DNA from: Amia ocellicauda
Lineage: Eukaryota > Chordata > Actinopteri > Amiiformes > Amiidae
Direction: 5' to 3'
Length of the DNA stretch: 64,000 bases
NCBI RefSeq assembly: GCF_036373705.1
Contig: NC_089850.1
Location: forward strand, 64,089,602-64,153,601
Under the pieces are notes generated by a model, which was not told the DNA's origin, did not search any database, and was given only the letters and a program-made list of their open reading frames with translations. The position numbers and the translations under genes are program-made. This document shows, in pieces, positions 2,263 to 63,700 of this stretch (its first letter is position 1; each line of letters starts with the position of its first letter).

Positions 2263-3189
2263 GATAGGGAGAGAGGGTCATTACAGTACAGACACAGACA
2301 CAGACACACACAGTACACAGAGACAGTACACTCACGTGCACAAAATAGATTGATCTTCGCGGTCTGTGGAGAGAAGGAGAGAGAGAAAAGGAGAGAGGGA
2401 GAGGGAGAGAGAGAGGGAGAGATAATTTAATTAATCATTATATTCAGTTCAATGGTATGCTCTGTGTAAAACTGCATTGGCAACACTGCCGATAAAGCAA
2501 CCATTGAACTGAATTGAGTTTAATTCAATATACAGAACAATCACTTACTATTGTCATTAATTGACATATTAATCTTGATAACATTAATTAATTGTGTAAG
2601 TCGCCCTGGACAAGGGCATCTACAAAGAAAAAAATAATAATCATCATCATCATCATCATAGTAATAATGTGAAATGACACTATGTCTCCGTCTAGTGGAC
2701 AGTTTTATTACTGCTCCAGTTTATACCTACAGCAGTCAGGGTATGGGAGGGCTGTATTAACACTTCTCCTCTCTTCACACCCACACACTGAGACACTCAG
2801 ACTATGTGCCCTTCACCACCCCCGACCCCCGGCAGCCTATCGGACTGGCACAGTCACATTCCTGCCCCTCCCAGAGAGACGGAGAGAGAGAGAGACTGAC
2901 ACACTGACTGACTGACTGACACACGGACTGGTTGGCCGACACACTGCCTGAGTGGCTGACTGACATGCTGACACACTGACTGATGCCCCCATGGTGCCCA
3001 TGCAGGCCGGGGGTACAGCACCTTGCAGCATGCTCTTGTAGGCCGCCTCAGAGATGGCGTAGATGTGGGGGGGCATCTCATGGCGCTTCTTGCCCCGGTA
3101 CATCTCCACAATGGAGTCGGTGTAGATAGGCAGGTTCTTATAGGGGTTGATCACGACACAGAACAGCCCTGAGTATGTCTGAGAGAGAA

Positions 3190-3233
<44 letters not shown>

Positions 3234-6200
3234 GGAGAGAGAGGGTAAATATCATACATTAACAGTGACTGATTATTAACAGAGTCCTTCTCTGTCTCCA
3301 CCCCCTCCCCCTTAGATAGATCAGTCCAGAGTAGTACCCCCCCCCCCCACACACACACACACACAGGCTGTATTCAAAACCGTACACAACCCTACTGCAT
3401 ACTGCACACTGCATGAGTACATACTACACACACACAGAGTAATATCCCCCCGCACCTCACACACATACAGCTCTGGAATACATTAAGAGACTACTGCAAA
3501 TTATTCTTAAATCAGCATCTCTACATGTATGGCAGCCATTCCATTCCAGTGTCTGTTGAATTTGTTGAACACAGGCCTACCTCATTCTACTGAATGAGCT
3601 ACTGATTAGGTGATCACCTGAACCAAATCTTATTTAACGAGGAAAAGTATAAAATCCACTGCTGTGGTCATCACTATCCTCTTGCAATAGGACCAGCTTG
3701 GATGGCAAAAACAGTGCTAGTAGAACCTCAAAAGTAATTGGAATCAAAAATAACTATTGACCATGGCAAAAGAGTTGAAAAGGAAAGTTTTGAGTGAGGA
3801 AAAGAAGGGTTCAATTCTGGCTATACTGGCAGAAGGATACAGTGAGCATCAAGTTGCTTCCATCCTTAAAATTTCAAAAATGGCAGTTCATAAGAACAAG
3901 GTCAAGCAGCAGACATTGGGGACAACAAAGCTACAGACCGGCAAAGGGGCGAAAACGACTCTCCACTGACCAGCTCATTCGAATGCCACTCAACCACCAC
4001 AGGATGACATCAAGTGACCTACAAAAAGAATGGCAAACGGCAGCTGGGGTAAAGTGCACGGCGAAAGACCATGACCATGAGGATTGGACCATAGAGGACT
4101 GGAGTAAGGTCATCTTCTCTGATTAGTCCAATATTCAGCTTTGCTCAACACCTGGTCGTCTAATGGTTAGACAGAGATCTGGAGAGGCCTACAAGGCACA
4201 GTGTCTCACACCCACTGTGAAATCTGGTGGAGGATCGGTGATCTGGGGGTGCTTCAGCAAGGCTGGAATCGGGCAGATTTGTCTTTGTGAAGTATGCATG
4301 ACATACAAGCCAAGCGACATACAAGGTTGTCCTGGAAGAAGACTTGCTTCCTTCTGCTCTGACAATGTTCCCCAACTCTGAGGATTGTTTTTTTTCCAGC
4401 AGGACAATGCTCCATGCCACACAGCCAGGTCAATCAAGGTTTGGAAGGAGGACCAACAGATCAAGACCCTGTCATGGCCCGCCCAATCTCCAGACCTGAA
4501 CCCCATGGAAAACCTCTGGAATATGATCAACATGAAGATGGATGGTCACAAGCCATCAAACTAAGCCAAGCTGCTTGAATCTTTGCACGAGGAGTGGCAT
4601 AAAGTCACCCAACATCACTGTGAAAGACTGGTGGAGAGTATGCCAAGACGCATGACAGCTGTGATTGAAAATCAGGGTTATTCCACCAAATAATGATTTC
4701 TGAACATTGACATTGAACATTGTGTTTAAAAATGAATATTAACTTATTTTCTTTGCATTATTCGAGGTCTGACAACACTGCATCTTTTTTGTTATTCTGA
4801 CCAGTTATCATTTTCTGCAAATAAATGCTCTAAATGACAATAATTGTATTTGGAATTTGGGAGAAATGTTGTCAGTAGTTTATAGAATAAAACAAAAATG
4901 TTCATTTTACTCACATACCTATAAATAGTAAAACCAGAGAAACTGATAATTTTGCAGTGGTCTCTTAATTTTTTCCAGAGCTGTAGATCAGTCCAGAACA
5001 GTATACCCCCGCCCCTCACAAACATAGATCAGTCCAGAGTAATATCTCTCTATCTGCATAGACATCATTCTAATTTACACACTAACTCCCCCCAAACCAT
5101 CCGCCAGACAGCAGGAAGCAGCAATGTATTCTTGTCCCAATGAAGTCGACCGCCTGGCTGCTCTCCCTTAAATCCAGCTGATGAGCCAGTTCGTGATCAA
5201 CAGATATTCTATTCAGTTGTTGCTCGGTCATGGTCGAGTGCAAGGAGTTCAATCAGCTGTAGTTTTGAAAAGCTGCGCCACATACAGTGCCCCCGATCTG
5301 ACTGTCATCAGTGCATCACTGTCAAGCAGCCAGCCACTGAATGGTGCGGTTTGGGGTCCGTTTGGTGATGAAGAACGTCAGCTCTCTGCCTTTCTGTCCC
5401 AACACTCACTCCTCAATCCTCTGCAATCCAGCTTCCGCACAGCTCACTCCACTGAGACGGCTCTCCTGGCAGTCACTGACTCCCTCAGCTGTTGGTGGCC
5501 TCCCTCTCCTCAGTCATCATCCTCCTTGATCTCTCTGCAGCATTTGACACCATCGATCACTCCATCCTCCTCTACGAGTCGATCCTGCGCACTCCTACTC
5601 CCAGCACATCACCACGCTGACACGCACCTGCAGATTCTTCTGAGCAACATACGACGAATCCGTCCCTTCCTCACCGACTACTCGACTCAGCTGCTCGTCC
5701 AGTCACTGGTCCCTCCTGGCCGGCCTGCCTGCAACTACTACCCACCGCTCCAGCTCATCCAGAACTCTGCGGCTCGTCTGGTATTCTCTCTGCCCCGATT
5801 CGCACACGCTACTCCACTGCTCCGCTCCCTCCACTGGCTCCCGATACCAGCATACATTCAGTTCAAGACATTAACCCTCACCTACCGCTGTCTTGACAAC
5901 ACTGCACCAAGATACCTTCAGTCCCTTGTCTCCCCATACATCCCCTCCAGACCACTAAGGTCTTCCTGTGCCAGAAGACTAACTCCACCTCCTCTCCACT
6001 CCCATTCCTCCAGAGCCACTCCTTCTCATCCCTGGCCCCTAAATGGTGGAACGACCTTCCCACCGAAGTCAAAAGAGCAGAGTCCTTGACCTCTTTCTGG
6101 CGCTTACTCAAGACACATCTTTTCAGACAGTACTTGTAATATTAGTCCTTTCAATTCCCGTTAGATAGTACTTCACAGCATTTTAAAATGCTTCTTGCGT

Positions 6201-6488
6201 TACTAATACTTGTATTATTGATTGATTTTCCTCCTTGCTCCCTTTCCCGTAACCCTTGACTGTGACCTAACATCTTGACAGCACTTAGCTTTACTTTCCA
6301 GGATGTATGACCTCAATTACTGTACTTACCTGTGTAAATTGGAAGTTGTAAAATGTATTATACTTTGAATTGCTTGGTATTATGTAAATTTGAATTTGTA
6401 ATGTTTGATGCCTTGTACTGAACTGTATTCTTGCACTTTGTATTGCACTTATGTTGTAAGTCGCCCTGGATAAGGGCATCTGCCAAGA

Positions 6489-6554
<66 letters not shown>

Positions 6555-8559
6555 TGAATGGCATTCACAGTATTCACACTGCATCTGATCACTATATTAA
6601 ACTCATATTTCACAATGAAGATCTTCAGCCGATCGCTGCTTCCACAGCATTTTCAAACTCCTGTATCACTTTCTCCTGGCTTTTTCTTTTAAATAATTCT
6701 AACCTGTCACAGGCTCTAGACTGCCTCTTTGCTTAGTCCTGCCTTCAAGCAGAAGTAAATGACCAATCCATGAAGCAAGGTTTTGGAAACTAACTCTGTT
6801 AGGACAGAACTGCTCTGGGGGCAGAACATATCTGATGCGTCTGATTGGTTACTTGCCTTTAGAAGGTGGGACATACATCAAGCGACCTTACTTTTGATAG
6901 GTTAGTAAACCTTGCAAGGAATAATGTAATTGCTGAAGCGGGGGAAATTCCACCCTGGTAATATTACACAGTTTAAAGTCTTCTCCTCAAATGTTCGTGG
7001 GTATTGTCCTCATTCACAGCAGGTAAACGAAGATGGCTGAGGAAGGGGGGTCTCTGGTATCAATATGATAACAAATGGTAGGTGAGGAGAGTTTGCTTAC
7101 CAGTCTTGTATCAATAGCATATCAAAAGATATTGATAAAGATGAGTAAGGAGACAGTCTGTCTCTGTTGGGAGTGAGTTAATCACCTCAGAGAAAAGTAT
7201 GGGTGAGGGCTCCATTGTCACTTGGTATACTAATAGGCAGCTGCCATTGGATACTCTGGTGGGTGGGGTGGTCACTCTGGAAGGTGGAGTTGGACAGGGG
7301 TTCAACTCATAAAAGCTGACTTGTCCATAAAGTCCTTGTATCAGTTTTGCCTTGCTGTACCCGGTATACTTGTATACTGTGATCTATATTCTGGATTCTG
7401 TAATAAATCAAATTGAACCTGAATTGTCTTAGTTCCAGTCACTGCTACAGGAGGGTCCATTTTCATACAACCTGGAGATGGACACTCGCACAATGGGCAG
7501 CCGGTCCTGTATATCATGGAGTCAACGCGATAAAACAGTGACCGTGATTTTAAAAAGATATGTTCCATTTTCATGTCATGAGGAGGGGCCAGAGCTGTAC
7601 TTTAAACCTTGAGTACACCCCTCTCCCCCACACACACATAGATCAGTCCACAGTGCACAACCCCCCCTTACACACATAGATGAAACTGCAATACACCCCT
7701 CTCACACACATAGATCAGTCCACAGTGCACAACCCCCCCACACACACACAGATGAAACTGCAATACACCCCTCTCACACACATAGATCAGTCTGCAGTCG
7801 CATACCCCTCTCACACACATAGATCAGTCTGCAGTCGCACACAACTCTCACACACATAGATCAGTCCGCAGTCGCACACCCCTCTCACAAACATAGATCA
7901 GTCCGCAGTAGTACACCCCTCTCACACACAAAGATCAGTCCGCAGTCACACACAACTCTCACACACATAGATCAGTCCGCAGTAGTACAGCCCTCTCACA
8001 CACATAGATCAGTCCACAGTAGTACACCCCTCTCACACACATAGATCAGTGCGCAGTGCACCCCCGCCCCTCACACACATAGATGAGTCCGGAGTAGTAT
8101 CTCTCGCGCAGGTTGTGCAGCACCGAGGCCGGGTTCAGGCAGGTCAGGTCGGCCATGTCCTCCGTCTTGCTGAACCGGGGGGGATTCATGCGCTGAAGCT
8201 CCGCCTTCTGCACCCGAAGCCGCCGCCCAGCGCCGCTCCCAGTCACGCCCCCTGCCTCCACAAGCTCCACCTCCACCTCCTCGCCCTGCTCCTCCAGCAC
8301 ACTTCCAGCCTGTACAGATACACAATACACACACAGTATAGACACAGTATAGATACACAATACACACACACAATACAGACACACACAGGACAGCACTGAC
8401 CTCGAACCCATGTTTCTCTGAGGGAACCCAGACCAGTCTCTTTGCTGCCCAATCAGCTTGGCTGGAAGCGGAGAAGCCGCTGCCTGGGGAGGCCGGACCC
8501 ACCCCCTTGTAGAGGAACCGAGTGACATCACTCACACTGCCCCCTGCTGGCCTGGACAT
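1..8559 (-). CDS. myh14: Non-muscle myosin II heavy chain, N-terminal exons (myh14-like), 3' part outside window
   Basis: Six coding exons, read on the minus strand: 8559-8401, 8309-8079, 3178-3022, 2363-2336, 2207-2111 and 62 to beyond base 1. Junctions are GT-AG and phases match (0,0,1,2,0). The product is the start of a class II myosin motor, an actin-based ATPase of the cytoskeleton. Seen: N-terminal SH3-like region with [59 protein letters not shown]; the 28-nt exon [10 protein letters not shown]; the P-loop [13 protein letters not shown]; and [23 protein letters not shown]14 is preferred over MYH9/10/11 because of the extended N-terminus (FLYKGVG..GSG before the WVPSE block), [10 protein letters not shown] and [14 protein letters not shown]14 identity is inferred from remembered family sequences. 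The ATG lies four bases into its exon, so a noncoding 5' exon is expected upstream. The 28-nt exon and its neighbours are ordinary for the family; the intron between 8078 and 3179 is heavily invaded by repeats. Confidence 0.88.
200..960. repeat. Degenerate ~30-bp minisatellite (AATAACACTGTTACTACTACTGTATC type)
   Basis: Over 20 imperfect copies of an AT-rich unit built from 'ctgtatctataataaca' and 'ctgttactacta' fill the myosin intron downstream of the P-loop exon. Unit length varies and copies are diverged, so this is an old array. Confidence 0.75.
1396..2110. repeat. Purine/pyrimidine low-complexity tracts in a myh14 intron
   Basis: Runs of (GA)n at 1396-1730 and (TC)n with CCCT interruptions at 1930-2104. 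The latter reads up to the splice donor of the P-loop exon at 2110. No coding signal; long open frames here are SLSLS/RERER artefacts. Confidence 0.8.
2211..2272. repeat. (GA)n microsatellite forming the polypyrimidine tract of a myh14 acceptor
   Basis: A nearly pure (AG)n followed by G9. Read on the minus strand it is the (CT)n tract immediately upstream of the acceptor at 2208. Confidence 0.85.
2590..2662 (+). mobile_element. L2-type LINE/SINE 3' tail fragment
   Basis: Contains 'gtaagtcgccctggacaagg', then a short A-rich and ATC/TAA tail. This matches the conserved 3' stem-loop tail seen on the other L2 copies in this window. Only the tail remains. Confidence 0.7.
3181..3242. repeat. (GA)n tract at the myh14 acceptor
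   Basis: Serves on the minus strand as the polypyrimidine tract before the acceptor at 3179-3180 (exon beginning TYSGLF). Confidence 0.8.
3305..3366 (-). repeat. Remote relic of the exon-derived myh14 minisatellite
   Basis: On the minus strand this contains TACTACTCTGGACTGATCTA, close to the coding end of the exon at 8079, followed by intron-like bases. A second relic at 3430-3466 abuts the Tc1 element. It shows the array once extended across the intron. Confidence 0.6.
3468..4983 (+). mobile_element. Tc1-like DNA transposon (defective), 1.5 kb
   Basis: Flanked by TA on both sides. The terminal inverted repeats read 'cagctctggaa' at the left and its complement 'ttccagagctg' at the right, extended by imperfectly matching sequence (ttaagagac..). 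Transposase remnants read on the plus strand: a helix-turn-helix-like start ([16 protein letters not shown]), then after frameshifts and stops [16 protein letters not shown] and [13 protein letters not shown], the DDE catalytic-domain landmarks. The reading frame is broken several times, so it is dead. It is inserted in exon-derived minisatellite DNA of the myh14 intron. Confidence 0.88.
4985..5052 (-). repeat. Relic of the exon-derived minisatellite with a longer exon portion
   Basis: Minus strand reads GAGAGATATTACTCTGGACT then GATCTATGTTTGTGAGGGG. This resembles the myh14 exon end encoding ERYYSGLIY plus the first ~20 intron bases. It lies between the Tc1 right end and a dispersed repeat (element B). 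Confidence 0.65.
5053..6895 (-). repeat. Dispersed repeat 'element B' copy, interrupted by an L2 fragment
   Basis: 5053-5372 plus 6554-6895 match, in reverse complement, the stretch around 26280-26870. The two halves are contiguous there. No transposase or RT frame is recognised in element B itself, and its class is unknown. Confidence 0.7.
5373..6553 (+). mobile_element. L2-type LINE fragment, 5'-truncated and internally deleted
   Basis: Translates to pieces of an L2 ORF2: [15 protein letters not shown] (RT), [35 protein letters not shown] and [17 protein letters not shown] (C-terminal region). It ends in the tail 'gtaagtcgccctggataagg' and (TAA)n at 6490-6553. Several deletions remove most of the RT domain. 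It sits inside element B. Confidence 0.88.
7080..7450 (+). mobile_element. Possible solo LTR-like block
   Basis: Contains a TATA-like 'cataaaagctg' near 7308 and, ~95 bases on, a polyadenylation signal 'aataaa' near 7402 followed by a T/G-rich stretch. This spacing resembles U3-R-U5 of an LTR. No internal retroviral frame and no convincing terminal repeats were seen, so this is weak. Confidence 0.25.
7600..8078 (-). repeat. Minisatellite made of duplicated exon 3' end plus splice donor of myh14
   Basis: About a dozen ~37-bp units follow the exon ending at 8079. On the minus strand each unit reads approximately TACTACTGCGGACTGATC then TATGTGTGTGAG. The true exon end reads TACTACTCCGGACTCATC then TAT|GTGTGTGAG. 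The units therefore repeat the last ~21 coding bases (YYSGLIY) and the intron start, each keeping a GT that mimics the donor. Confidence 0.8.
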
Positions 8560-8639
8560 GGTACTGCCATGAAAAAGAGGGAGAGAGAAAGAGGGAGAGG
8601 GATGAAGGGTTAAGAGAGAATAGTGAATTAACACTGACT

Positions 8640-9358
8640 GACTGGACACTACAGCACATTAACACTGACTGACTGACTGGACACTACAGCACATTAACAC
8701 TGACTGACTGGACACTACAGTACATTAACACTGACTGACTGACTGGACACTACAGCACATTAACACTGACTGACTGGACACTACAGCACATTAACACTGA
8801 CTGACTGAACACTACAGCACATTAACACTGACTGACTGACTGGACACTACAGTACATTAACACTGACTGACTGGACACTACAGTACATTAACACTGACTG
8901 ACTGACTGGACACTACAGTACATTAACACTGACTGACTGACTGGACACTACAGTACATTAACACTGACTGACTGGACACTACAGCACATTAACACTGACT
9001 GACTGACTGGACACTACAGTACATTAACACTGACTGACTGACTGGACACTACAGTACATTAACACTGACTGACTGACTGGACACTACAGTACATTAACAC
9101 TGACTGACTGGACACTACAGCACATTAACACTGACTGACTGGACACTACAGCACATTAACACTGACTGACTGACTGGACACTACAGTACATTAACACTGA
9201 CTTACTGGACACTACAGCACATTAACACTGACTGACTGGACACTACAGCACATTAACACTGACTGACTGACTGGACACTACAGTACATTAACACTGACTG
9301 ACTGACTGGACACTACAGCACATTAACACTGACTGACTGACTGGACACTACAGTACAT
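8640..9358 (-). repeat. ~31-35 bp minisatellite, unit CAGTCAGTGTTAATGT..GTAGTGTCCAGT
   Basis: About 20 well-conserved units. On the plus strand they read 'attaacactgactgactgg' and 'acactacagtac'. It lies in myh14 intron 1, just upstream of the acceptor at 8564. The same unit occurs at 18.5-19.2, 23.3-23.6 and 46.0-46.2 kb. Unit length differs by one CTGA tetranucleotide between copies. Confidence 0.92.
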
Positions 9359-13989: not shown

Positions 13990-16350
13990 AGCAAGTTCAC
14001 TGAGGATTGAGAAGAGCTGTACTCTCAGCACTGGCCCCTGGACAAGGGGACAAACCGGCATGCATCCACTTCAAGACATTGACCCTCACCTACTGCTGTC
14101 TGGACCAGACTGCACCTCTACCTTCAGACCCTGACCTCTCCGTACATCCTCTCCAGACCTCTCCGGTCTTCCGGTGCCAGAAGACTGACTCTGGCTCCTC
14201 TCCACTCCCTTTCTTCCAGAGCCGCTTCTTCTCATCCTTGGATCCTAAGTGGTGGACCAACCTTTTATTATTATTTTTTTTATTTCTTGGCAGACGCCCT
14301 TATCTGGGGCGACTTACAACATAAGTGCAAAAAAAGTGCAAAAATACAGTTAAGTAAAAGGCATCAATCATTACAAATCATTTACAATTTACACAGGCAA
14401 GTACAGTAAGTGAGGTCCTACATCCTGGACGGTAAAAGCTAAGTGCTGTCAAGATGTAGGGTCACAGTCAAGGGCTACGGGAAAGGGAGCAAGGAGGAAA
14501 ACAAATCGGAGACACAAGAAGCATAATGAAACTGTGAAGTGCTATCTAACGGGGATAAAAGGACTGATATTACTGTACAGAAGTACTGTCTGAAAAGATG
14601 TGTCTTGAGTAAGCGCCGGAATGAGGTCAAGGACTCTGCTGTGTTGACTTCAGTGGGAAGGTCGTTCCACCATTTCGGGTCCAGGGATGAGAAGGAGCGG
14701 CTCTGGAGGAGGGAGAGTGGAGAGGAGGCAGAGTTAGTCTTCTGGCACTGGAGGAGCGCAGTGGTCTGGAGGGGATGTATGGAGAGACGAGTGTCTGAAG
14801 GTAGCTTGGTGCAGTGTGGTCGAGACAGCGGTAGGTGAGGGTCAGTGTCTTGAACTGAATGCGTGCCGCTATCGGGAGTCAGTGGAGGGAGAGGAGCAGT
14901 GGAGTATCATGTGTGAATCGGGGCAGAGAGACACCAGACAAGCTGCAGAGTTCTGGATGAGCTGGAGCGGCGGGTAGAAGATGCAGGCAGGCCGGCCAGG
15001 AGGGAGTTGCAGTAGTCCAGGCGGGAGAGGACCTGTGACGAGCAGCTGAGTCGAATAGTCAGTGAGGAAGGGACGGATCCGGCGTATGTTGCTCAGGAAG
15101 AATCTACAGGTGCATGTCAGCGTGGTGATGTGCTGGGTGTAGGAGAGGATCGAGGGTGACTCCTAGATTTTTAGCTGAAGAAGAAGGAGAGAGTGTGGTG
15201 AATTCCAAGGGGATCCAGATGGAGAGGTCAGCAGAAGGTGAGGAAGAGTGGGGGAAGAACAGAAGATCCGATTTGAAGAGGTTGAGCTTGAGGTGGTGTG
15301 AGTGCATCCAGGCAGAAATAGCAGACAAGCAGGAAGAGATGCGTGAGGGGATGAGAGGGTCAGAAGAGGGAAAAGACTGGAAGATCTGGGCATCATCTGC
15401 GTAAAAGTGGTAGGAGAAACCATGGGATGCGATGAGGGGGCCCAGGGAGCGAGTGTAGAGAGAGAACAGGAGCGGGCCCAGGACAGAGCCTTGGGGAATG
15501 CCTGTGAGGAGAGGTTGGGGGGTGGATAAGGAGCCTCGCCATGTCACTTGGTAGGTCCGGTTGCTGAGGTAGGAGGAGAACCAGGTGAGAGCAGTCCCAG
15601 AGATTCCAAGGTCAGCGAGGCAGGAGAGGAGGATGGAGTGATCGACGGTGTCAAATGCTGCAGAGAGGTCAAGGAGAATGAAGACTGAGGAGAGGGAGGC
15701 TGCCTGAGCACGGCTGAGGGAGTCAGTGACAGCCAGGTGAGCCGTCTTAGTGGAGTGAGCTGTGCGGAAGCCGGATTGCAGAGGATCAAGGAGCGAGTGT
15801 TGGGACAGAAAGTCAGAGAGCTGACGGTGGACTGCCTGCTCGAGAGTGTTTGACAGGAAGGGGAGTAGGGAGACAGGGCGGTAGTTCTGAGGAGAGGTGG
15901 CGTCAAGGGTTGGTTTCTTGACCTTCCCACTGAAGTCAAAACAGCAGAGTCCTTGACCTCATTCTGACGATTACTAAAGACACAGTTATTCACACTGTAC
16001 CTGCAACTCAGCTGTTATTCCACTGTGTGGCTCAGCTCTGCTGTAAAATTGCACTTTATCTATTTTTTGCTGTACAACTTGCTGTTACATTGCTAGAACT
16101 CATGTTGTTTATATTGTTTACCCCTATGTCCCTTTCCCTGGAGCTATTAACTATGACTTCACATCTTGTCTGCAATTATTAGCTCACAATCTAGGATGTA
16201 GGATTGTATTAACTGTATATTTCTTATGCACTTGTGTAATTTTGAACTTGTAATTTGTACCTTGTCTTGATCTGTAATTCTAGACTATATTGCACTTTGT
16301 ACTGCTCTTATGTTTTGCATGTCGCCCTGGAAAAGGGCGTCTGCTAAGAA
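13990..16350 (+). mobile_element. L2 LINE 3' fragment, split by an inverted L2 insertion
   Basis: The outer plus-strand copy is 13990-14265 ([17 protein letters not shown]..) and resumes at ~15913 ('gaccttcccactgaagtc'). It ends with the 3' UTR and the tail 'gtcgccctggaaaagg' near 16330. The two halves join cleanly when compared with the L2 copy at 5.4-6.5 kb. Confidence 0.8.
14266..15912 (-). mobile_element. L2 LINE, 5'-truncated, inserted in another L2
   Basis: On the minus strand this encodes RT pieces [19 protein letters not shown] and [13 protein letters not shown] (catalytic YADD intact), [13 protein letters not shown], and the C-terminal region. Its (A/TAA) tail and 'gttgtaagtcgcc' lie at 14266-14320. 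A deletion near 15100 and frameshifts make it inactive. Confidence 0.85.
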
Positions 16351-18529: not shown

Positions 18530-19202
18530 GTTAGTGTTAATGGACTGTAGTGTCCAGTCAGTCAGTCAGTGTTAATGTGCTGTAGTGTCCAGTCAGTCAG
18601 TCATTGTTAATGTACTGTAGTGTCCAGTCAATCAGTCAGTCAGTGTTAATGTAGTGTAGTGTCCAGTCAGTCAGTGTTAATGAGCTGTAGTGTCCAGTCA
18701 GTCAGTGTTAAGGAGCTGTAGTGTCCAGTCAGTCAGTCAGTGTTAATGTGATGTAGTGTCCAGTCAGTCAGTCAGTGTTAATGTGCTGTAGTGTCCAGTC
18801 AGTCAGTCAGTGTTAATGTACTGTAGTGTCCAGTCAGTGTTAATGTGCTGTAGTGTCCAGTCAGTCAGTCAGTGTTAATGTGCTGTAGTGTCCAGTGAGT
18901 CAGTCAGTGTTAATGTGATGTAGTGTCCAGTCAGTCAGTCAGTGTTAATGTGATGTAGTGTCCAGTCAGTCAGTCAGTGTTAATGTACTGTAGTGTCCAG
19001 TCAGTCAGTCAGTCAGTGTTAATGTGCTGTAGTGTCCAGTCAGTCAGTCAGTGTTAATGTACTGTAGTGTCCAGTCAGTCAGTCAGTGTTAATGTGCTGT
19101 AGTGTCCAGTCAGTCAGTCAGTGTTAATGTACTGTAGTGTCCAGTCAGTCAGTCAGTGTTAATGTGCTGTAGTGTCCAGTCAGTCAGTGTTAATGTGCTG
19201 TA
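18530..19202 (+). repeat. Minisatellite, GTCAGTCAGTGTTAATGT..CTGTAGTGTCCA
   Basis: About 18 units, the same family as at 8640-9358 but on the opposite strand. This puts it in the sense orientation relative to mpv17l, just as the other is in sense relative to myh14. Confidence 0.92.
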
Positions 19203-22902: not shown

Positions 22903-24736
22903 ATGTACCGACTTTCTCAGCCATGGCTGTACAATGTAGCCGGATACACTGTCCTCTTCGCCACTGCTGATGTCATACAGCAAAGCATGCTGGGAAAGCA
23001 GAGCGAGGGCAAGCTGAACACAGAGGGGGCCAGGGCGGGTGAGCACCGTAGAGCTGCAGATGCCTCGGCCAGAGGGGCGATAGACTGGATCCAGATGGGC
23101 AGGGTGGCTCTGATTGGCTTTGTCTTCCACGCCAACTTCAACTACCATTGGCTGAGGGCACTGGAGAGGGCGTGGCCAGGGAGTGGGGCCAAGAGAGTGG
23201 TGGTTAAAGTGATTGCTGACCAGTTAGTGGGGGCGCCGGCCACCATTACAGCATTCTATACTGGTAACGTTGGGACAGGACTGTCAGACTGTAGTCTGTG
23301 TTAATGTGCTGTAGTGGCTAGTCAGTCAGTCAGTCAGTCAGTCAGTGTTATTGTACTGTAGTGTCCAGTCAGTCAGTCAGTGTTAATGTACTGTAGTGTC
23401 CAGTCAGTCAGTCAGTGTTAATGTACTGTAGTGTCCAGTCAGTCAGTCAGTCAGTGTTAATGTGCTGTAGTGTCCAGTCAGTCAGTGTTAATGTACTGTA
23501 GTGTCCAGTCAGTCAGTCAATGTTAATGTGCTGTAGTGTCCAGTCAGTCAGTGTTAATGTGCTGTAGTGTCCAGTCAGTCAGTCAGTGTTAATGTGCTGT
23601 AGTGTCCAGTCAGTCAGCATATTAATCAACCCTATCTCTCTCTCTTTCTCTCAGGCCTCAGTGTGTTGGAGGGCCGGGAGCCATTTGGAGACTTGAGGGA
23701 CAAATTCTGGACCTCATACATGGTACTGAGATACATCATTGCCTTCAGTTCTGTGCGGCTGGGCTGGGCTGGGAGTGTTGAAGGGTGTCCCACTGAGCTC
23801 TTTTCTTTCATTCCTGTACCCCTTTCCCTTGATTACTCCCTTCTCACTTCCTCTGTCCCTCCCTCCTCCCTCCTCCCTCATTCCCTCCTCCCTCACTCCT
23901 CTCTCACTACTTCACTCACTCTAGTGCACATCCCTTGACTTCAGTGAAACTGCATACTCTCCAAAGGGAGGAGGGAGCAGACTGGAACCTATAACTACTG
24001 CTAATAAATTGATCGGTTGCTCTCCTCTCCCTCTCTCTCTCCCTGCAGACTGGGCTGTTGTACTGGAGCACAGTGCAGGTAAAGTATAACACACCTGTAC
24101 TGTGTCTGAACTCTCCTTTACTGTGTGTGTCTGTACTGTGTGTGTCTGTACTGTACTGTGTGTGTCTGTACTGTGTGTGTGTGTGTGTACTGTACTGTGT
24201 GTGTCTGTACTGTGTGTGTCTGTACTGTGTGTGTGTGTGTACTGTACTGTGTGTGTCTGTACTGTGTGTGTCTGTACTGTACTGTGTGTGTCTGTACTGT
24301 GTGTGTGTGTGTACTGTACTGTGTGTGTCTGTACTGTGTGTGTGTGTGTACTGTACTGTGTGTGTCTGTACTGTGTGTGTCTGTACTGTACTGTGTGTGT
24401 CTGTACTGTGTGTCTGTGTGTACTGTACTGTGTGTGTCTGTACTGTACTGTGTGTGTCTGTACTGTGTGTGTGTCTGTACTGTACTGTGTGTGTCTGTAC
24501 TGTGTGTGTGTGTACTGTACTGTGTGTGTCTGTACTGTACTTTGTGTCTGTGGTGTTGGGCATTGTTGCAGCGCGTCTGTGTTCACTGTGTCTCTATCTC
24601 TCTCTCTCAGGTGGTGAACTTCTCGCTCATCCCTCCCTCCGTCCGCACGGTGTTCGTGGGGGGGGCTTCCCTGCTCTGGACAGTGTTCCTCTGTAACCTA
24701 CGGCAACAACAAGCGGGCGGGGCGAACAGGCACTGA
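22903..24736 (+). CDS. mpv17l: Mpv17-like protein (Mpv17/PMP22 family)
   Basis: Four coding exons: 22903-23263, 23655-23722, 24049-24078 and 24611-24736, with matching phases and GT-AG junctions. They total 585 nt, giving 194 aa; human MPV17L is about 196. Mpv17 family members are four-pass proteins of the inner mitochondrial or peroxisomal membrane; MPV17L is linked to reactive-oxygen handling. Diagnostic residues: HANFNYHWLRALERAWPG, DQLVGAPATITAFYTGLS, LRDKFWTSYMTGLLYW and VVNFSLIPPSVR. The ATG lies one base after the acceptor, at the same point as in the family (MYRLSQPWLYNVAGYT). The 30-nt exon is unusually small but encodes the conserved TGLLYWSTVQ. The intron after it is one compound TG/CTGTACTG array. 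Confidence 0.92.
23285..23625 (+). repeat. GTCAGTCAGTGTTAATGT minisatellite in an mpv17l intron
   Basis: About nine units between the first and second coding exons, in the sense orientation. They end about 30 bases before the acceptor at 23654. The last unit grades into 'cagcatattaatcaaccc', a plausible branch-point region. Confidence 0.9.
24095..24545 (+). repeat. TGTGTCTGTACTG array after an mpv17l splice donor
   Basis: Starts within about 20 bases of the donor at 24079 and fills nearly all of the 532-bp intron. Units of 'tgtgtctgtactg' alternate with 'tgtactgtactg'. Repeat-derived open frames over 200 aa on both strands are artefacts. Confidence 0.92.
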
Positions 24737-26022: not shown

Positions 26023-27352
26023 TCACCAGATGCCCCACCGGTGAGCCCCTGTGACCTCCAAACTGTGATTAAAGTCACCAGGCGGCGCTCAGCGAACTGT
26101 ACTTTAACAGATCAGTGAGTCAACAACTCACCAGACAGAGAGCCGGAGACTCATCATAAACACTACGGACAACATGGCCACCAATTGAGAGCCTCGAGCC
26201 TGGACTGGGGAGCCCCGGCCCATTGATCAAGTGCACAGGGCGGCATGACGTGGGGGGGGCCCTGTCTCCAAGTTAACTAACCTTTGGTCGCGTCATGTAT
26301 GTCCCGCCTCCTAAAGGCAAATAACCATCAGACGCATCATATATGTTCTGCCCCGGATCAGTTCTGTCCTAACCTCACTTCACCGATTAGTCAGAAAAAG
26401 CCAGGAGATAGTAATACTGGAGTTTGGAAACACTGTGAAAGCAGCGATCGGCTGAAGATATTCATTGTGAAATATGAATTTAATATAGTGATCAAGTGCA
26501 GTGTGAATACTGTGAATGCCATTCAATGCGTTCATCATCACCAAACGGACCCCAAACTGCACCATTCAGCGGCTGGCTGCTTGACTCTGTCCCATCAGTG
26601 ATGCACCGATGACAGATCGGGGCACTGTATGTGGCGCAGCTTTTCAAAATTACAGCTGATGGAACTCCCTGCCCTCGACCATGACCGAGCAACAGCTGAA
26701 TAGAATATCTGTTGATCACAAACTGGCTCAGCAGCTGGATTTAAGGGAGAGCAGCCAGGTGGTCGACTTCATTGGGGCGAGAATACATTGCTGCTTCCTG
26801 CTGTCCGGCGGATGCTTTGGGGGGAGTTAGTGTGCAAATTAGAATGATGTCTATGCAGATAGAGACAGAATCCAGAGTCAGAGACATGATTGTCCAGGGA
26901 TATGTCAGTGACTGGAGAGCTAGAGACATGAGGAGCACAAGCCCCCCAATCTCATCACGAGTTTAAAGCATCAATCACTCGAGCGTGTGACAGAGACCGG
27001 TGTTTAACAATTAAGTCATTAAGAGTCTTCAATATCATTTAAAATCAGGCAAAGTCCGTACAAAGCAGAAATTAAAAGATATAAAATGGCACGTTATAAA
27101 GTGAAGACCAGCGGAGTACCAAAGTCAAGGCTCGGTCTCAGTGCAGTCTCTTCATTGTGTGTGTAACCTTATTGTACAGTTGTGTAGATGCTGCTGATGC
27201 TGGGGATTGTGTAGCAGCTGCTCCCTTCCATGAGTGTCCCAGTCTTCATGCGTCTATAGCAGCTGGGTCAAATTCCCCGTAAACACAACACTGGGTTTCA
27301 TGTTTATGCAGTTGACACACACATTTATATTCGATCTCGAACAGACTGTAGT
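26023..27352 (+). repeat. Dispersed repeat 'element A', interrupted by element B
   Basis: Its two ends match 33144-33732 in reverse complement, sharing for example 'gatgccccaccggtgagccc' and 'tatattcgatctcgaac'. The match breaks between ~26212 and 26893. A further ~43 bases near 27110 are absent from the other copy. No coding frame; class unknown. Confidence 0.7.
26212..26893 (+). repeat. Element B, uninterrupted copy inside element A
   Basis: Absent from the second element A copy and present, inverted and split by an L2, at 5053-6895. It is therefore a mobile or duplicated unit of about 680 bp. Short open frames here show no known domain. Confidence 0.65.
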
Positions 27353-42644: not shown

Positions 42645-43640
42645 GGGCTGGCTGCCAGTTAGACCTGTCTCCCCCTCCACCCTTGCCTCCACTGCCCTCA
42701 CTCTTACCTTCCATTGACTGTTTTTCCCATCTATCTATCAACTGTGCTACCTCCTCTTTGTTCTCCTCCCTCACCTCCTCCCTTGACTGTCTCTGTCCTC
42801 TCATGTCTCGTCCTGCCCGTCCCTCCCATCCTCATCCTTAGTTCTCTTCCATTCTCCACTTAACCCGATCCAGTCTGCGCGCTGCTGAACAGAAGTGGAA
42901 AAGGACCAAACTCCCAGCTGCCCTCGAACTCTACCGCTCTCTACTGTCCACATTCTCGTCCTCTCTCACCTCAGCCAAGAAGTTTTACTTCCAATCACTC
43001 TTCGAATCCACTGTCAACAACCCCCGCAAACTCTTCTCCACCTTCTCCTCCCTCTTTGCCCCCCCTCCCCTCCTCCTCCCTCATCTCTCACTGCTGATGA
43101 TTTCACCTCCTTCTTCTCCTCCAAGATTGCAGACATCTGCAGGCTCTTCAATACTCCACCCTCATCTCCCATCACACCGAAACCTCCCACCGACCAAGCT
43201 TCCTTTTCTTCATTCTCACCTCTCTTAGATGCTGAAGTTTCCGCTCTCCTCCTACGTCACGAACCTACAACGTGTGCCCTGGACCCTCTCTACTCTACTG
43301 CCCCGCTCCCTCCACTGGCTCCTGATAGCGGCACGCATTCAGTTCAAGACACTGACCCTCACCTACCGCTGTCTCGACCACACTGCACCAAGCTACCTTC
43401 AGACACTCGTCTCTCCATACATCCCCTCCAGACCACTGCGCTCCTACAGTGCCAGAAGACTAACTCTGCCTCCTCTCCACTCTCCTTCCTCCAGAGCCGC
43501 TCCTTCTCATACCTGGACCCTAAATGGAGGAATGACCTTCCCACCGAAGTCAACACAGCAGAGTCTTTGACCTCCTTCTGGCGCTTACTCAAGATGCATC
43601 TTTTCAGACAGTACTTGTAATTTTAGTCCTTTACTCTCCT
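42645..43640 (+). mobile_element. L2 LINE with the RT core deleted
   Basis: The pre-RT part of ORF2 (RSLRAAEQKWKRTKLPA-like, then TADDFTSFFSSKIADICRLF) jumps near 43280 to the C-terminal region ([39 protein letters not shown]). The whole palm domain is missing. The 3' UTR is cut short near 43640. Confidence 0.82.
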
Positions 43641-43789
43641 GTAAGATAGCACTTATACAACGTTTTGTCATACCCCTGCCTTTGCTTAACTAGCACTCAT
43701 ATTGTTTATTTTGCAGTTAAGTGTAGTGTAGTGTGATGTAGTGCAGTGTAGTGTGATGTAGTGCAATGTGATGTAGTTCAGTGCTGGCG

Positions 43790-45440: not shown

Positions 45441-46009
45441 ACACTGACTCAGAGTTCAGAGTCAGAGTTCACTAACACTATTATTGTTCTCACAGCTCTC
45501 GGCCTTATTCCTCCTCAGACTCAGCAGCTGCTCATATTCTACTAAATCATTCACATCTGAAAAACTGGGGAAAGAAGGAGCTGTAATTATATGATACAGA
45601 CACTAGAGGGCATACATTCCCATTACATCACCCCTTCTGGAACAGCACTGCTCTGCTACACTGTTACTACAGCACAGCCCCCTCCATTACAAAAGCGTCT
45701 ATCCGTCTGTGTCTCTCTCTCCTCGTCTCTGAGTGTCAATCTGATCCACATGTCATATCTGGGTCCTGGGGAGGATTACTGATTCTGGGGGGGATGGAGG
45801 GGACAAGGGATAACTGTTGTAATTAACACTGTTTGTACTGTGTGTGTTTCTGTATTACACTGTAATTAATAACGTCAGCCTGACTGATGATGAAGGGGAG
45901 AGTAAGAGAGAGAGAAGGAAAGACAGAAGGAGTGACAGAACCAAGGAGAGATAAAGAGATTGACAATGAGGAAGGAATATTGTTAATATCCCTCCCTCAT
46001 TCTCTATAA
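45441..46009. other. No recognisable feature
   Basis: Mixed-composition intergenic DNA with a GA-rich patch near 45900-45960. I see no exon, RNA gene or mobile element. Confidence 0.4.
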
Positions 46010-46215
46010 GTCAGTGTTAATGTGCTGTAGTGTCCAGTCAGTCAGTCAGTGTTAATGTGCTGTAGTGTCCAGTCAGTCAGTCAGTGTTAATGTGCTGTAG
46101 TGTCCAGTCAGTCAGTCAGTGTTAATGTACTGTAGTGTCCAGTCAGTCAATCAGTGTTAATGTGCTGTAGTGTCCAGTCAGTCAGTGTTAATGTGCTGTA
46201 GTGTCCAGTCTTGTA
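46010..46215 (+). repeat. GTCAGTCAGTGTTAATGT minisatellite (intergenic)
   Basis: Six units of the same family as in the myh14 and mpv17l introns, plus-strand orientation. Confidence 0.9.
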
Positions 46216-50994: not shown

Positions 50995-51316
50995 TACAGT
51001 GTGACAGAGTACAGTATTATGTACAGTATTATTATGCTTCTCGCGTTCTTGATTGTTTTCCTCCTTGCTCCCTTCCCATAGCCCTTGACTGTGACCCTAC
51101 ATCTTGACAGTACTTAGCTTTCACCATCCAGGATGTAGGACCTCACTTACTGTACTTGTGTAAATTGTAAATTGGAATTTGTAAAATGTATTATTTTGTA
51201 TTGCTATGTTTTAGTTACATTGAATTTGTATTGATTGATGCCTTGTACTTAACTGTATTTTTACACTTTTTTTGCACTTATGTTGTAAGTCGCCTGGATA
51301 AAGGCATCTGCCAAGA

Positions 51317-51368
<52 letters not shown>

Positions 51369-51379
51369 TTAATAATAAT

Positions 51380-51435
<56 letters not shown>
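50995..51435 (+). mobile_element. L2 3' UTR and tail with long (TAA)n
   Basis: Matches the 3' UTR of the L2 at 6.2-6.5 kb, including 'cccttgactgtgaccctaca' and the tail 'gtaagtcgcctggataaagg'. An unusually long (AAT)n of ~117 bp ends at 51435. Confidence 0.85.
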
Positions 51436-55700: not shown

Positions 55701-57844
55701 CGAGCTGCACGGTGCTGGGCTGTGAGCACAGGTCCCACTAGAGGACGTCGGGCCCTCATGGAATCTGTTTCTGACAGTTTGGTCAGAAACATGCACACCA
55801 GTAGCCCGCTGGAGGTCATTTTGTAGGGCTCAGGCAGTGCTCCTCCTGTTCCTCCTCGCACAAAGGAGCAGATACCGGTACTGCTGCTGGGTTGAGGCCC
55901 TTCTACGGCCCTGTCCAGCATTCCTCGTGTAACGGCCTGTCTCTTGGTATCTCCTCCATGCTCTTGAGACTGTAGTGGGAGAACAGCAAACCTTCTTGCG
56001 ACAGCACGTATGGATGTGCCATCCTGGAGGAGCTGGACTACCTGTGCAACCTGAATGGGCTGCAGGTACCGCCTCATGCTACCAGTGACAAGGACACTAG
56101 CAAAACTCAAAACTATAGAACAATCAGTCAGGAAGGATAAGGAGAGAGCAATTGTCTGTGGCCACCTGCAAACTTCCATTTTTGGGGGTTGTCTTGCTGT
56201 TGCCCCTCCATTGCACCTGTTGTCACTTTCATTTGTACCAAAACAGGTGACATTGATTCACAATCGCTTAGGCTTCCTAACTGGACAGATTGATATCCCT
56301 GAAGTTGAATTGACTTGGTGTTATACTGTGATGATTGTGTTCCCTTAATTTGTTTGAGCAGTGTATATCATCGGGACAATTGACAGTGGACATTTTTGTT
56401 TAGATTTTAATTTTATTTCATGTTGATAATGGTAAGAAACATAAATAAACAAAAAAGATAAATGGAAACACAGACCAACTAAACTTTAATCTTTGTAATC
56501 TGGACTTTCTCTGGATCGTTAATGTTGTTCATTAATTTAATTAAGATTTGAGTCTCCAAAACTCGGATGGACTCGGACTATGGTGACTCGGACGCAACTA
56601 CAAGTCTGCTATCGGACAACAGACTGCATTACACCAGACTGGACTAGATTGTACTGGACTGGAGTGGACTACACTTTACAGCACTGGATTCTCTTCTACT
56701 GGACTGAACTGGACTGACCAGCTCTCTCTCTCCTTCTCTCAATTCAATTAAATTCCTTTCCTTCCCCTTCTCCCTCTCTCTCACTGCCCAGTCCCCAACG
56801 GCAGCAGCTCCCTGAAGAAGCCGGCCAACTCTCCCGATGGCTTCCAGGTGGGCTTCCCCATGCGCACCAACTACATGTACGGCCGAGTGAAGCGCACGCT
56901 GCTGGAGGAGATCTTCGCGCTGACGCTGTGCCTATGGCTGAAGGGTGGCGCCGGGCCGGGCCTGGGGACACCCTTCTCCTACTCCGTCCCGGGGCAGGCC
57001 AACGAGATCGTGCTCATCGAGTGGGGCAACAACCCCATGGAGCTTCTGGTGAACGACAAGGTGGGAGAGAGAGTGTGTCTGTACTGTGTGTGTGTGTCTG
57101 TACTGTATGTGTGTGTCTGTACTGTGTGTGTGTTGTGTATGTGTACGGTACTGTGTCTGTACTGTAGTGTGTACTGTGTGAATCTGTACTGTGTGTGTGT
57201 ACTGTCTACTGTACTGTATCTTTCTTTCCTCCTTTAGTAACCACTGTATGAACTAAATATCTTCATCCATTCAGAGCTCAAGATTTTACGTTGTATTGTA
57301 TTGAATTGTATGTTGTACTTACTGCATTAACCCCATCTCTTTCCCGCTCTCCCCCAGGCGGTCACCCTCCCTCTCTCGCTGTCGGACAGTAAGTGGCACC
57401 ATGTGTGTGTGTCCTGGTCCACTCGGGACGGCCAGTGGGAGGCGTTCCAGGATGGCGTGAAGAGGGGCGCCGGGGAGAACCTGGCCAGTTGGCATCCCAT
57501 CAAGCCAGGGGGCGTCTTCATCCTGGGCCAGGAGCAGGTACGACCTCTGACCTCTGAAGCAAGCAACCAGTCAGTCAGTCAGTCAGTCAGTCTGTGTTAA
57601 GGTACTGTATTAACCCATGTGGACCCCCTCTCAGGACACGCTAGGGGGCCGCTTCGACGCGACGCAGGCGTTTGTGGGGGAACTGGCCGGAGTGCAGCTG
57701 TGGTCGCGCGCCCTGTCTGCCCACGAGGTGTACAGCCTGGCCTCCTGCACCAGTCACATGACGGGGGACGTCATCGCCTGGACTGAGTCTGCCGTCGAGC
57801 TGCACGGTGGTGTCACCAAGTACCCCTTCGACCCCTGCCACTGA
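52736..57844 (+). CDS. nptx1-like: Neuronal pentraxin family protein (NPTX1/NPTXR-like), secreted, with His-rich insert
   Basis: Five exons: 52736-53455, 53773-54178, 56792-57060, 57358-57537 and 57635-57844. Phases match; 1785 nt, 594 aa against about 430-500 for known NPTX proteins. Neuronal pentraxins are secreted or membrane-tethered synaptic proteins that cluster AMPA receptors. Residues 1-26 form a signal peptide (LLIPLLLSLSFSPG). Then come a Pro-rich tract, FVCTPIPAEAEAGC, and a coiled coil (LRENLVQQRETILDQRETI). Exon 2 encodes a short helix then a His/Asp-rich tract (~265-330). The pentraxin domain spans exons 3-5: FQVGFPMRTNYMYGRVKR, GTPFSYSVPGQANEIVLIE, the signature HHVCVSWST, and the Ca-binding QEQDTLGGRFDATQAF. 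The C-terminus (EVYSLASC..VIAWTES) is closest to NPTX1, while FQVGFPMRTNYMY recalls NPTXR. Exact orthology is open. Intron 2 holds a Tc1 element. Confidence 0.88.
54181..54420. repeat. CTGGACT/CTGCAGA repeat at the start of nptx intron 2
   Basis: Imperfect units of 'gactggactctgcggactgg' begin at the exon 2 donor. A related stretch lies at 56570-56720 just before exon 3. Confidence 0.75.
54832..56363 (-). mobile_element. Tc1-like DNA transposon in nptx intron 2
   Basis: TA-flanked; terminal repeats 'cactgctcaaaaaaattaag' and 'cttaatttgtttgagcagtg'. On the minus strand the transposase reads MRRYLQPIQVAQVVQLL and GTSIRAVARRF (HTH), REHQNWQVRHWRPVLFTDES (first D), GGSVMVWGGISLGGRTDL, then after a break MQDNARPHVARVCRQFLD (second D) and SPHLNPIENLWDV (E). 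Frameshifts near the middle and at 55400-55440 inactivate it. Confidence 0.92.
57070..57220 (+). repeat. TGTGTCTGTACTG array at the nptx exon 3 donor
   Basis: Begins 14 bases after the donor (gacaag|gtggga) in the sense orientation. The same intron in the second copy carries it at 61626-61776. Confidence 0.9.
57565..57620 (+). repeat. (GTCA)n with TGTGTTAAGGTACTG before the nptx exon 5 acceptor
   Basis: A 97-bp intron made largely of 'cagtcagtcagtcagtc' followed by 'tgtgttaaggtactg', then the acceptor 'ccctctcag'. It is related to the CAGTCAGTGTTAATG minisatellites. Confidence 0.8.
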
Positions 57845-57899
57845 CGACCCCTGACCTGCCCTCCTGTGTGTAACTGCTATAGTATTATACTATGGTGCA

Positions 57900-58012
57900 G
57901 TCCAGCAAACAAACATAGTACAGACACACAGTACAGTACACACACACACAGTACAGTACAGTACAGACACACACACACACACACAGTACAGACACACAGT
58001 ACAGTACTCTAA
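57900..58012 (-). repeat. CAGTACAGACACAC array in the nptx 3' region
   Basis: Same family as the intron arrays but antisense to nptx. The second copy is a few CA units shorter. Confidence 0.85.
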
Positions 58013-58485
58013 CACAGACGTGTAAAATGGTACGATATGCATTTCACACTATATAATAAAATAATAATTGTAATTATAATATAATCAAAATCTTTATTGT
58101 CTTCCTTGAACTGTATGACAATGTGTTCTTTCTACAGTATTACTCTCGCGCGGCAACAAAGGGGCAGACTGACAGTACCAGTGCTGAGAGAGAGAGAGAG
58201 AAAGAGGGAGAGTGGGGACAAGAGGATGTCTCTCTAGTTGTCTATATATCCATCCAGGCGTCATCTCCCTCGCTCTCTCCAGAAGGCAATATCTTTCTCT
58301 CTTTCAGGCTGTTGCACTATTTTTCTAACTTTTTCTCTCCCTCTGAGTTTAACCAACAGTCTCTATATAAGGCTTCCTCCACACCTTCTCTCCCTTCCCC
58401 CTCTCGCCAGTGTGTTACCTGCAGAATTAAGCTCTAGTTACACAATGTTAAAATAATAAGTGGGTGTCAATCCCCAGGGTTTGTA

Positions 58486-58491
58486 AATAAA
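58486..58491 (+). terminator. Possible nptx polyadenylation signal
   Basis: AATAAA in 'tttgtaaataaagtttc', ~640 bases after the stop; another AATAAA lies at 58055-58060. Which is used cannot be decided from sequence. Confidence 0.35.
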
Positions 58492-59066
58492 GTTTCAACT
58501 TTTGACAAATTGGAGCGTCATTTCATCTGATTATTTTCAGCTCAGATAGACGAGACACACACACACACACACACACAGATAGACACAACAGAGAAACACA
58601 CCTACAACACACAGAAATACAGGCACACTGACACACAGATAGACACAGAAATACAGAGACACACTCCGACACACACGACATACACAGAATCTGACACACA
58701 CACACTCTCTCCGATGTCACGTCAACATCAGGGTGTGCTAACGAGGCCTAAGGAGATCAATTCGCACTAATAAGCTACTGACGTGCCTCAGAGTCAATTA
58801 ATGACACAGAGAGAGTATGAAGGTGAATCTCTCCGTCACAGAGAGAGACACACTGAGAGGGACACAGAGACAGAGACCAACACACACACAGGCAGAGACA
58901 GAGACAGACAGACAGACAGACAGACACACACACACACACTACCAATGAACAGCCAGTAACAGACTGTGAATTCAATAATACATCTTTAATGAGCGACAGC
59001 AGCAGCCAATTACAGCGACAGAGGGGCGTGGTCTGTACAGGAAGCACAGGAATTGGGGGGAGGGCT

Positions 59067-59148
59067 CTACATCTTCTTCATCCAATCGAGCGAGGGCCCC
59101 TGGGGGTCGCAAGGGTGACTGGGGACGTCTGGGAGTCGCCCATCATCT
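59067..59148 (-). CDS. Candidate last coding exon of an unidentified minus-strand gene
   Basis: The minus strand has an acceptor 'gttcctctcag', then an open stretch [26 protein letters not shown] and TAG. ATTAAA, a polyadenylation signal variant, follows near 58992. I do not recognise the protein. With upstream exons beyond or hidden in the window, this could be a real terminal exon or chance. It is repeated at 63619-63700. Confidence 0.35.
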
Positions 59149-59279
59149 CTGAGAGGAACTGAGGGACAAAGGGGACAGGGTTCGGTGTCATTAATCAAAT
59201 CAAAGCCATTAGCTTCACATGCAGACACTTCTCTGCTGTTCGAAGTCACTCGTGTAGCGTTATGTTGGGTGTATTTTGA

Positions 59280-60631
<1,352 letters not shown>

Positions 60632-61347
60632 ATGCTACCAGTGACAAGGACACTAGCAAAACTCAAAACTATAGAACAATCAGTCAGGAAGGATAAGGAG
60701 AGAGCAATTGTCTGTGGCCACCTGCAAACTTCCATTTTTGGGGGTTGTCTTGCTGTTGCCCCTCCATTGCACCTGTTGTCACTTTCATTTGTACCAAAAC
60801 AGGTGACATTGATTCACAATCGCTTAGGCTTCCTAACTGGACAGATTGATATCCCTGAAGTTGAATTGACTTGGTGTTATACTGTGATGATTGTGTTCCC
60901 TTAATTTGTTTGAGCAGTGTATATCATCGGGACAATTGACAGTGGACATTTTTGTTTAGATTTTAATTTTATTTCATGTTGATAATGGTAAGAAACATAA
61001 ATAAACAAAAAAGATAAATGGAAACACAGACCAACTAAACTTTAATCTTTGTAATCTGGACTTTCTCTGGATCGTTAGTGTTGTTCATTAATTTAATTAA
61101 GATTTGAGTCTCCAAAACTCGGATGGACTCGGACTATGGTGACTCGGACGCAACTACAAGTCTGCTATCGGACAACAGACTGCATTACACCAGACTGGAC
61201 TAGATTGTACTGGACTGGAGTGGACTACACTTTACAGCACTGGATTCTCTTCTACTGGACTGAACTGGACTGACCAGCTCTCTCTCTCCTTCTCTCAATT
61301 CAATTAAATTCCTTTCCTTCCCCTTCTCCCTCTCTCTCACTGCCCAG

Positions 61348-62400
61348 TCCCCAACGGCAGCAGCTCCCTGAAGAAGCCGGCCAACTCTCCCGATGGTTTC
61401 CAGGTGGGCTTCCCCATGCGCACCAACTACATGTACGGCCGAGTGAAGCGCACGCTGCTGGAGGAGATCTTCGCGCTGACGCTGTGCCTATGGCTGAAGG
61501 GTGGCGCCGGGCCGGGCCTGGGGACACCCTTCTCCTACTCCGTCCCGGGGCAGGCCAACGAGATCGTGCTCATCGAGTGGGGCAACAACCCCATGGAGCT
61601 TCTGGTGAACGACAAGGTGGGAGAGAGAGTGTGTCTGTACTGTGTGTGTGTGTCTGTACTGTATGTGTGTGTCTGTACTGTGTGTGTGTTGTGTATGTGT
61701 ACTGTACTGTGTCTGTACTGTAGTGTGTACTGTGTGAATCTGTACTGTGTGTGTGTACTGTCTACTGTACTGTATCTTTCTTTCCTCCTTTAGTAACCAC
61801 TGTATGAACTAAATATCTTCATCCATTCAGAGCTCAAGATTTTACGTTGTATTGTATTGAATTGTATGTTGTACTTACTGCATTAACCCCATCTCTTTCC
61901 CGCTCTCCCCCAGGCGGTCACCCTCCCTCTCTCGCTGTCGGACAGTAAGTGGCACCATGTGTGTGTGTCCTGGTCCACTCGGGACGGCCAGTGGGAGGCG
62001 TTCCAGGATGGCGTGAAGAGGGGCGCCGGGGAGAACCTGGCCAGTTGGCATCCCATCAAGCCAGGGGGCGTCTTCATCCTGGGCCAGGAGCAGGTACGAC
62101 CTCTGACCTCTGAAGCAAGCAACCAGTCAGTCAGTCAGTCAGTCAGTCTGTGTTAAGGTACTGTATTAACCCATGTGGACCCCCTCTCAGGACACGCTAG
62201 GGGGCCGCTTCGACGCGACGCAGGCGTTTGTGGGGGAACTGGCCGGAGTGCAGCTGTGGTCGCGCGCCCTGTCTGCCCACGAGGTGTACAGCCTGGCCTC
62301 CTGCACCAGTCACATGACGGGGGACGTCATCGCCTGGACTGAGTCTGCCGTCGAGCTGCACGGTGGTGTCACCAAGTACCCCTTCGACCCCTGCCACTGA
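61348..62400 (+). pseudogene. Partial duplicate of nptx exons 3-5 (no exons 1-2)
   Basis: Exons 61348-61616, 61914-62093 and 62191-62400, all splice sites and the frame intact, the protein sequence apparently unchanged (the one coding difference noticed, GGC to GGT, is silent). It lacks the signal peptide and coiled-coil exons, so by itself it cannot make a secreted pentraxin. It could serve as alternative downstream exons of the same transcript, or be an assembly artefact. Confidence 0.8.
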
Positions 62401-63618: not shown

Positions 63619-63700
63619 CTACATCTTCTTCATCCAATCGAGCGAGGGCCCCTGGGGGTCGCAAGGGTGACTGGGGACGTCTGGGAGTCGCCCATCATCT
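63619..63700 (-). CDS. Second copy of the candidate minus-strand last exon
   Basis: Same 82-bp open segment, acceptor and stop as at 59067-59148. Conservation here reflects the recent duplication, not selection. Confidence 0.3.

Follow-up and report, generated by a model that had tools for sequence, protein, structure and literature searches.

A probable mirage-type minisatellite beside a splice junction of a myh14-like myosin gene in Amia ocellicauda

Introduction

Minisatellite-like tandem duplications of exon/intron boundaries are described in amphioxus globin genes (BflGb6 and BflGb9), where they are called mirages after the Adh3 case (PMC3087553; this and the three papers below are cited from excerpts). 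Mirage unit lengths range from 10 to 72 bp (Adh3) to 150 to 160 bp, many units contain splice signals, and the units within a cluster evolve in concert, with the cluster boundaries exempt (PMC3087553). Further amphioxus mirages lie in PGBD5 and TnC (PMC3902484), and the excerpts of both reports describe splicing as undisturbed. In humans, the repeat units of an IFI6 minisatellite are used as donors after an exon and make isoforms (PMC4526556), and repeats at exon-intron boundaries may form novel introns (PMC2812944). No vertebrate "mirage" was found among the open-licence papers searched. Here we describe a minisatellite in a stretch of 64,000 nucleotides of the Amia ocellicauda genome (the window; contig NC_089850.1, positions 64,089,602 to 64,153,601). 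It occupies an intron of a nonmuscle-type myosin heavy chain gene that begins within the window, on the minus strand. An original prediction had noticed there about a dozen units of ~37 bp, directly after an exon ending in YYSGLIY. We interpret them, with a probability of about 85%, as a mirage-type minisatellite, that is, a near-neutral array produced by slippage across a splice junction and later split by transposons.

Results

The array is built from an exon end and its splice donor

The features that carry this finding are as follows (a slash marks the exon end).

8079..8309, minus strand: likely myh14-like exon; its last 23 bases are the repeat source and its protein ends in ERYYSGLIY
8073..8081, minus strand: native splice donor, TAT/GTGTGT
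7638..8078, minus strand: minisatellite of 12 junction-derived units (putative mirage-type array), period mostly 37 bp, contiguous with the exon end at 8079
3022..3178, minus strand: next exon (ending in SMLQ) with its acceptor; Myosin_head, E 2.5e-21

Among solved structures, the 8079-8309 exon matches Myosin-14 best (E 4.5e-20), and because Myosin-11 follows closely (1.7e-19), the label "myh14-like" is likely but not proven. Paralogues in which this exon is uninterrupted match it at 65-72%, and a Pfam search with the short exon alone gave no match. The native donor was placed at 8073..8081 because the reading frame into the next exon (TYSGLFCVV) needs that site.

All 12 units directly follow the exon, as predicted, with their last exon-like bases at 8041, 8004, 7967, 7930, 7893, 7856, 7819, 7782, 7748, 7710, 7676 and 7638 for units 1 to 12. 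Unit lengths are 38 bp, then 37 bp in seven units, then 34, 38, 34 and 38 bp, and Tandem Repeats Finder (TRF) reports 7631-8095 with a period of 37 and 12.6 copies. Each unit repeats the exon end together with the donor, with 12 to 19 of 21 exon-like bases and 8 or 9 of the first nine intron bases identical to the parent; the predicted "few changes" is rather generous for units 9 and 11, which keep 12 and 13 of the 21. Units 2-8 are 81-97% alike, and units 9-12 represent a 34/38-bp dimer present twice, with 95-97% identity between its two copies.

The similarity to the exon is far above chance. Exon-only DNA (31 nt) scores 17 against the array, compared to a maximum of 11 in 500 dinucleotide shuffles, and 21 against 3179-5060, compared to a maximum of 12 in 300 shuffles. 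When a 34-nt junction query was scanned over 60-base windows, scores of at least 13 were confined to 3281-8140 (minus strand), and the best score elsewhere in the window was 12. Furthermore, when only the 12 units went into a profile, a search with it returned the parent exon (8099-8067, E 2.3e-8), which reads as the first unit. The array originated from the exon junction: the exon is contiguous with it, the rotated junction is 85% identical to a 41-bp relic unit, and joining the flanks of an inserted Tc1-like element rebuilds a unit. By the same measure unit 1 is 83% identical to the junction and units 2-12 are 63-80% identical.

Relics of an older array are separated by inserted DNA

Several further pieces of the array lie deeper in the same intron, together with two insertions.

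5015..5050, minus strand: relic unit with 27 exon-like bases (ERYYSGLIY) and a donor copy, from the profile and the joined flanks
4984..5014, minus strand: relic, remaining part of the older 41-bp unit that the Tc1-like element entered; identity to the rotated exon junction, 85%
3427..3467, minus strand: relic unit on the far side of the Tc1-like element, from the joined flanks
3316..3342, minus strand: relic unit with exon-like YYSGLIY, differing from the exon synonymously, from the profile and the joined flanks
3468..4983, unstranded: Tc1-like element inside an array unit, with inverted terminal repeats and a TA target duplication
5051..7625, unstranded: element B, a composite of inserted DNA; its left end is at ~5047-5051, where a copy at 26865 starts to match, and its right end is provisional

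The unit-only profile finds two significant relics (5041-5012, E 2.5e-6; 3342-3316, E 3.7e-4), a weak one (5011-4984, E 0.2), and two pieces that are nonsignificant alone (3467-3456, E 1.5; 3438-3427, E 9.2). These weaker pieces are convincing only because the joined flanks of the 3468-4983 element, which we take to be of the Tc1 family, read as a continuous array; the older unit restored in this way has 41 bp, comprising 23 exon and 18 intron bases. Hence the relics assigned to the array by the original prediction do belong to it, now delimited as 3316-3342, 3427-3467 and 4984-5050, and one of them has the longer exon portion ERYYSGLIY that had been reported, in the form of 27 exon-like bases at 5024-5050. 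Over these 27 bases the relic differs from the exon at three positions, all synonymous (probability 0.009 if random), a pattern that drift of the exon under coding constraint since the copying would produce.

The Tc1-like insertion is younger than the array. For element B, parts of which recur at 26286-26865, 14265-15826, 43290-43654 and 51046-51380, the arrangement is consistent with insertion after the array, and relic 5024-5050 may have been cut short by it; the predicted age order thus stands for the first element and is compatible with the data for the second. The idea that the array once extended across the ~4.9-kb intron was not upheld, since most of that length is inserted DNA and the array-bearing intron comes to ~0.7 kb by arithmetic.

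Decoy donors lie behind an in-frame stop

8046..8048, minus strand: TGA stop in the exon's reading frame, at intron positions 31-33, preceding every decoy donor

The predicted near-native context of the decoy GTs is confirmed: the native 9-mer TAT/GTGTGT is carried by 9 of the 12 decoys, and the other three are near copies. Their predicted effect is a different matter. The original prediction expected decoy use to add exon-like sequence to the motor domain, but the first decoy lies at +38, past the TGA, and the translated products of all 12 decoys, as well as those of the near sites +2 and +4, contain a stop. Because the in-frame TGA precedes every decoy, decoy use would truncate the protein rather than add motor residues, and in-frame lengthening of the motor is rejected. 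Transcripts with early stops are usually marked for decay, and a decoy-spliced transcript would probably meet this fate. We infer that normal splicing uses the native donor and that the array copies are most likely near-neutral. With nine exact and three near copies of the native 9-mer within ~450 bases of the real junction, the locus offers a natural test of how the spliceosome chooses its site.

Junction duplications are rare among related genes

In five paralogue loci (L007, L008, L009, L011 and L016), the corresponding junction reads GTGAGT or GTAAGT and lacks copies, and none were found at the ends of myh14 exons 1 and 3. A second junction duplication is present in a myh9-like gene (C6:48689489-48689650; L007/L018) at a different junction, after AYRSMMQ. 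There the last 36 exon bases and the donor were copied ~83 bp downstream (score 24 over 36 bases), with an in-frame TAG stop before the copied donor; TRF gives a period of 83 and 1.9 copies, and a third copy is degraded.

In a first pass over 8 distinct junctions (identical copies dropped), the myh14 and C6 genes were the two with copies. Among 27 machine-called exon ends in four genes, four were starred, namely, these two cases and two mis-calls at intronic positions (C5 9042 and myh14 9080). Two unstarred ends exceed their 60 shuffles by 2: myh14 6036 (16 versus 14, an intronic mis-call) and C6 6074 (13 versus 11). On the acceptor side, 0 of 27 were starred. None of 30 kinesin exon ends scored at least 15, compared to 8 of 300 random positions; several of the kinesin donor calls score poorly and may not mark true junctions. 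A burst of mirages at myosin junctions is thus not supported: junction copies are rare, and these samples show no enrichment over ordinary local duplication.

Other features of the gene family and the window

A 91-bp GT-AG intron at 8310-8400 (minus strand) separates HGFE from AGSV at a place where the exons of the five paralogues named above are uninterrupted. Its sequence is a TG-type satellite that recurs many times in the window, with 72-84% identity for the copies listed, and it may represent the gain of an intron built from a satellite. Elsewhere in the genome, C6:27186806-27292676 contains four tandem nonmuscle-type myosin copies with equal scores over the 8079-8309 exon, and a fifth relative lies at 29640255. 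At C27:5088380-5090479 (L010) there is an intronless myosin heavy chain head, possibly a retrocopy, whose frame stays open for 666 codons up to the locus edge; the 1949-amino-acid open frame reported for it is not relied on, the same figure having been given for two myh14 exons.

Pfam searches of 20 open frames (18 of them from a list of 441 complex frames) found families in 8, all of them transposon, reverse transcriptase, nuclease or myosin. A 35-bp satellite family forms four arrays in both orientations (8633-9358, 18533-19202, 23331-23617 and 46009-46210), one of which sits just upstream of the myh14 start. A tandem duplication, 56076-59448 and 60632-64000, is 99.6% identical over 3375 aligned bases and reaches the window end.

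Discussion

How might such an array arise? In our interpretation, replication slippage or unequal exchange would have placed head-to-tail duplicates of a 41-bp segment across the donor, comprising the last 23 exon and first 18 intron bases, in the intron. Their number would then have grown, and most of the surviving array would have shifted to a shortened 37-bp form, with unit 1 and the distant relics staying nearer to the original. Transposons would have split the array afterwards. Splicing would still rely on the native donor, and a transcript occasionally spliced at a decoy would carry an early stop.

Could the array instead have come from elsewhere, or not be real as assembled? The region is full of minisatellites, and TG-rich arrays elsewhere match weakly, as they might if a dispersed satellite had landed in the intron and its resemblance to the exon were coincidental or secondary. 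In the 988-Mb assembly, a 471-base query matched the array and relic of the home intron as well as three TG-rich arrays on C21; two of the three were checked for tandem repeats and are TG/AC arrays. Against the exon junction, the C21 matches score 12, 12 and 14, near the background of the window (12; reversed-query control, 13) and below the relics (17 to 26). With up to two mismatches allowed, a 21-base core occurs at 13 places in the genome. Of these, 12 are in the home exon/intron (the exon, one relic and 10 units), and the remaining one, on C11, has two mismatches; the backwards pattern also has one place. The array locus is thus unique as far as the search reaches, strongly but not absolutely, as very common words are skipped. 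Besides, the exon-only similarity is far above shuffles and the exon sequence is bound to a conserved myosin protein. A dispersed-repeat origin is rejected by the near-background C21 scores and the uniqueness of the core motif, and we give it almost no credence; neither a better-matching repeat nor a second locus with the array was found in the window or, within the reach of the search, in the genome, and the exon origin proposed in the original prediction survives. Tandem arrays are error-prone in assembly, and the copy number could be wrong, but an assembly artefact as a whole is very improbable, given the differences among the units, the relics found at distances of up to ~4.8 kb, and the transposon that sits inside the array together with its target duplication.

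A near-neutral mirage also has to be weighed against a functional array, in which a bank of decoy donors would lower productive myh14 splicing through early-stop transcripts and be tuned by unit number. The stop in every decoy product and the many copies of the native 9-mer would suit such a role, and several observations count against our own interpretation. The native donor has no advantage over the nine decoys of identical 9-mer and, by a donor matrix, ranks only 28th (tied) among the 362 GT sites of the intron. TGT/GTGAGG, 4 bases past it, has the stronger U1 pairing (-4.9 versus -0.5), although its use would shift the frame. Within the units, a larger share of bases is retained in the donor portion (104/108 identical overall) than in the exon portion (187/252), a possible sign of constraint, although the units have a common ancestry. 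Furthermore, among 36-mers sampled every 97 bases, a nearby copy scoring at least 20 was found for 42 of 288 in the myh14 stretch (array included), compared to 2/312 in C6, 0/96 in C5 and 0/96 in C23; since local repeats are so common in this stretch, the splice junction is not necessarily privileged as a seed. In the excerpts of PMC3087553 and PMC3902484, splicing proceeds undisturbed by the amphioxus mirages, and we consider a functional array unlikely. A broader proposal, that junctions are recurrent minisatellite seeds in this vertebrate lineage, that the array is a length-variable decoy-donor bank, and that the relics keep an earlier codon state of the exon, is likewise doubtful.

Comparison with known systems places the putative mirage-type array closest to amphioxus. 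As in mirages, tandem units span the exon end and the splice site, the array adjoins its parent exon within that exon's intron, and the units keep splice signals. The fit to concerted evolution is partial: units 2-8 resemble each other and unit 1 and the relic lie nearer to the exon, but units 9-12, at the far end, form a duplicated dimer rather than a diverged edge. Unlike the amphioxus cases, this one belongs to a fish lineage; its array has 12 standing units, transposons have separated older relics from it, and a stop precedes all decoys. Like IFI6 (PMC4526556, excerpt), it is a minisatellite whose units place donors after an exon, but by translation its decoy products are predicted not to be translatable isoforms. 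Like novel introns from variable tandem repeats or coding tandem duplication (PMC2812944, excerpt), boundary repeats bring splice signals into a gene; unlike them, the copies fill an existing intron and create no new one. Judged on its anatomy, the myh14 array fits the mirages, a kind already known from amphioxus. It would extend a phenomenon placed in lancelets by the literature searched to a vertebrate-type gene, in a locus with ordered layers of old relics, transposon and standing array.
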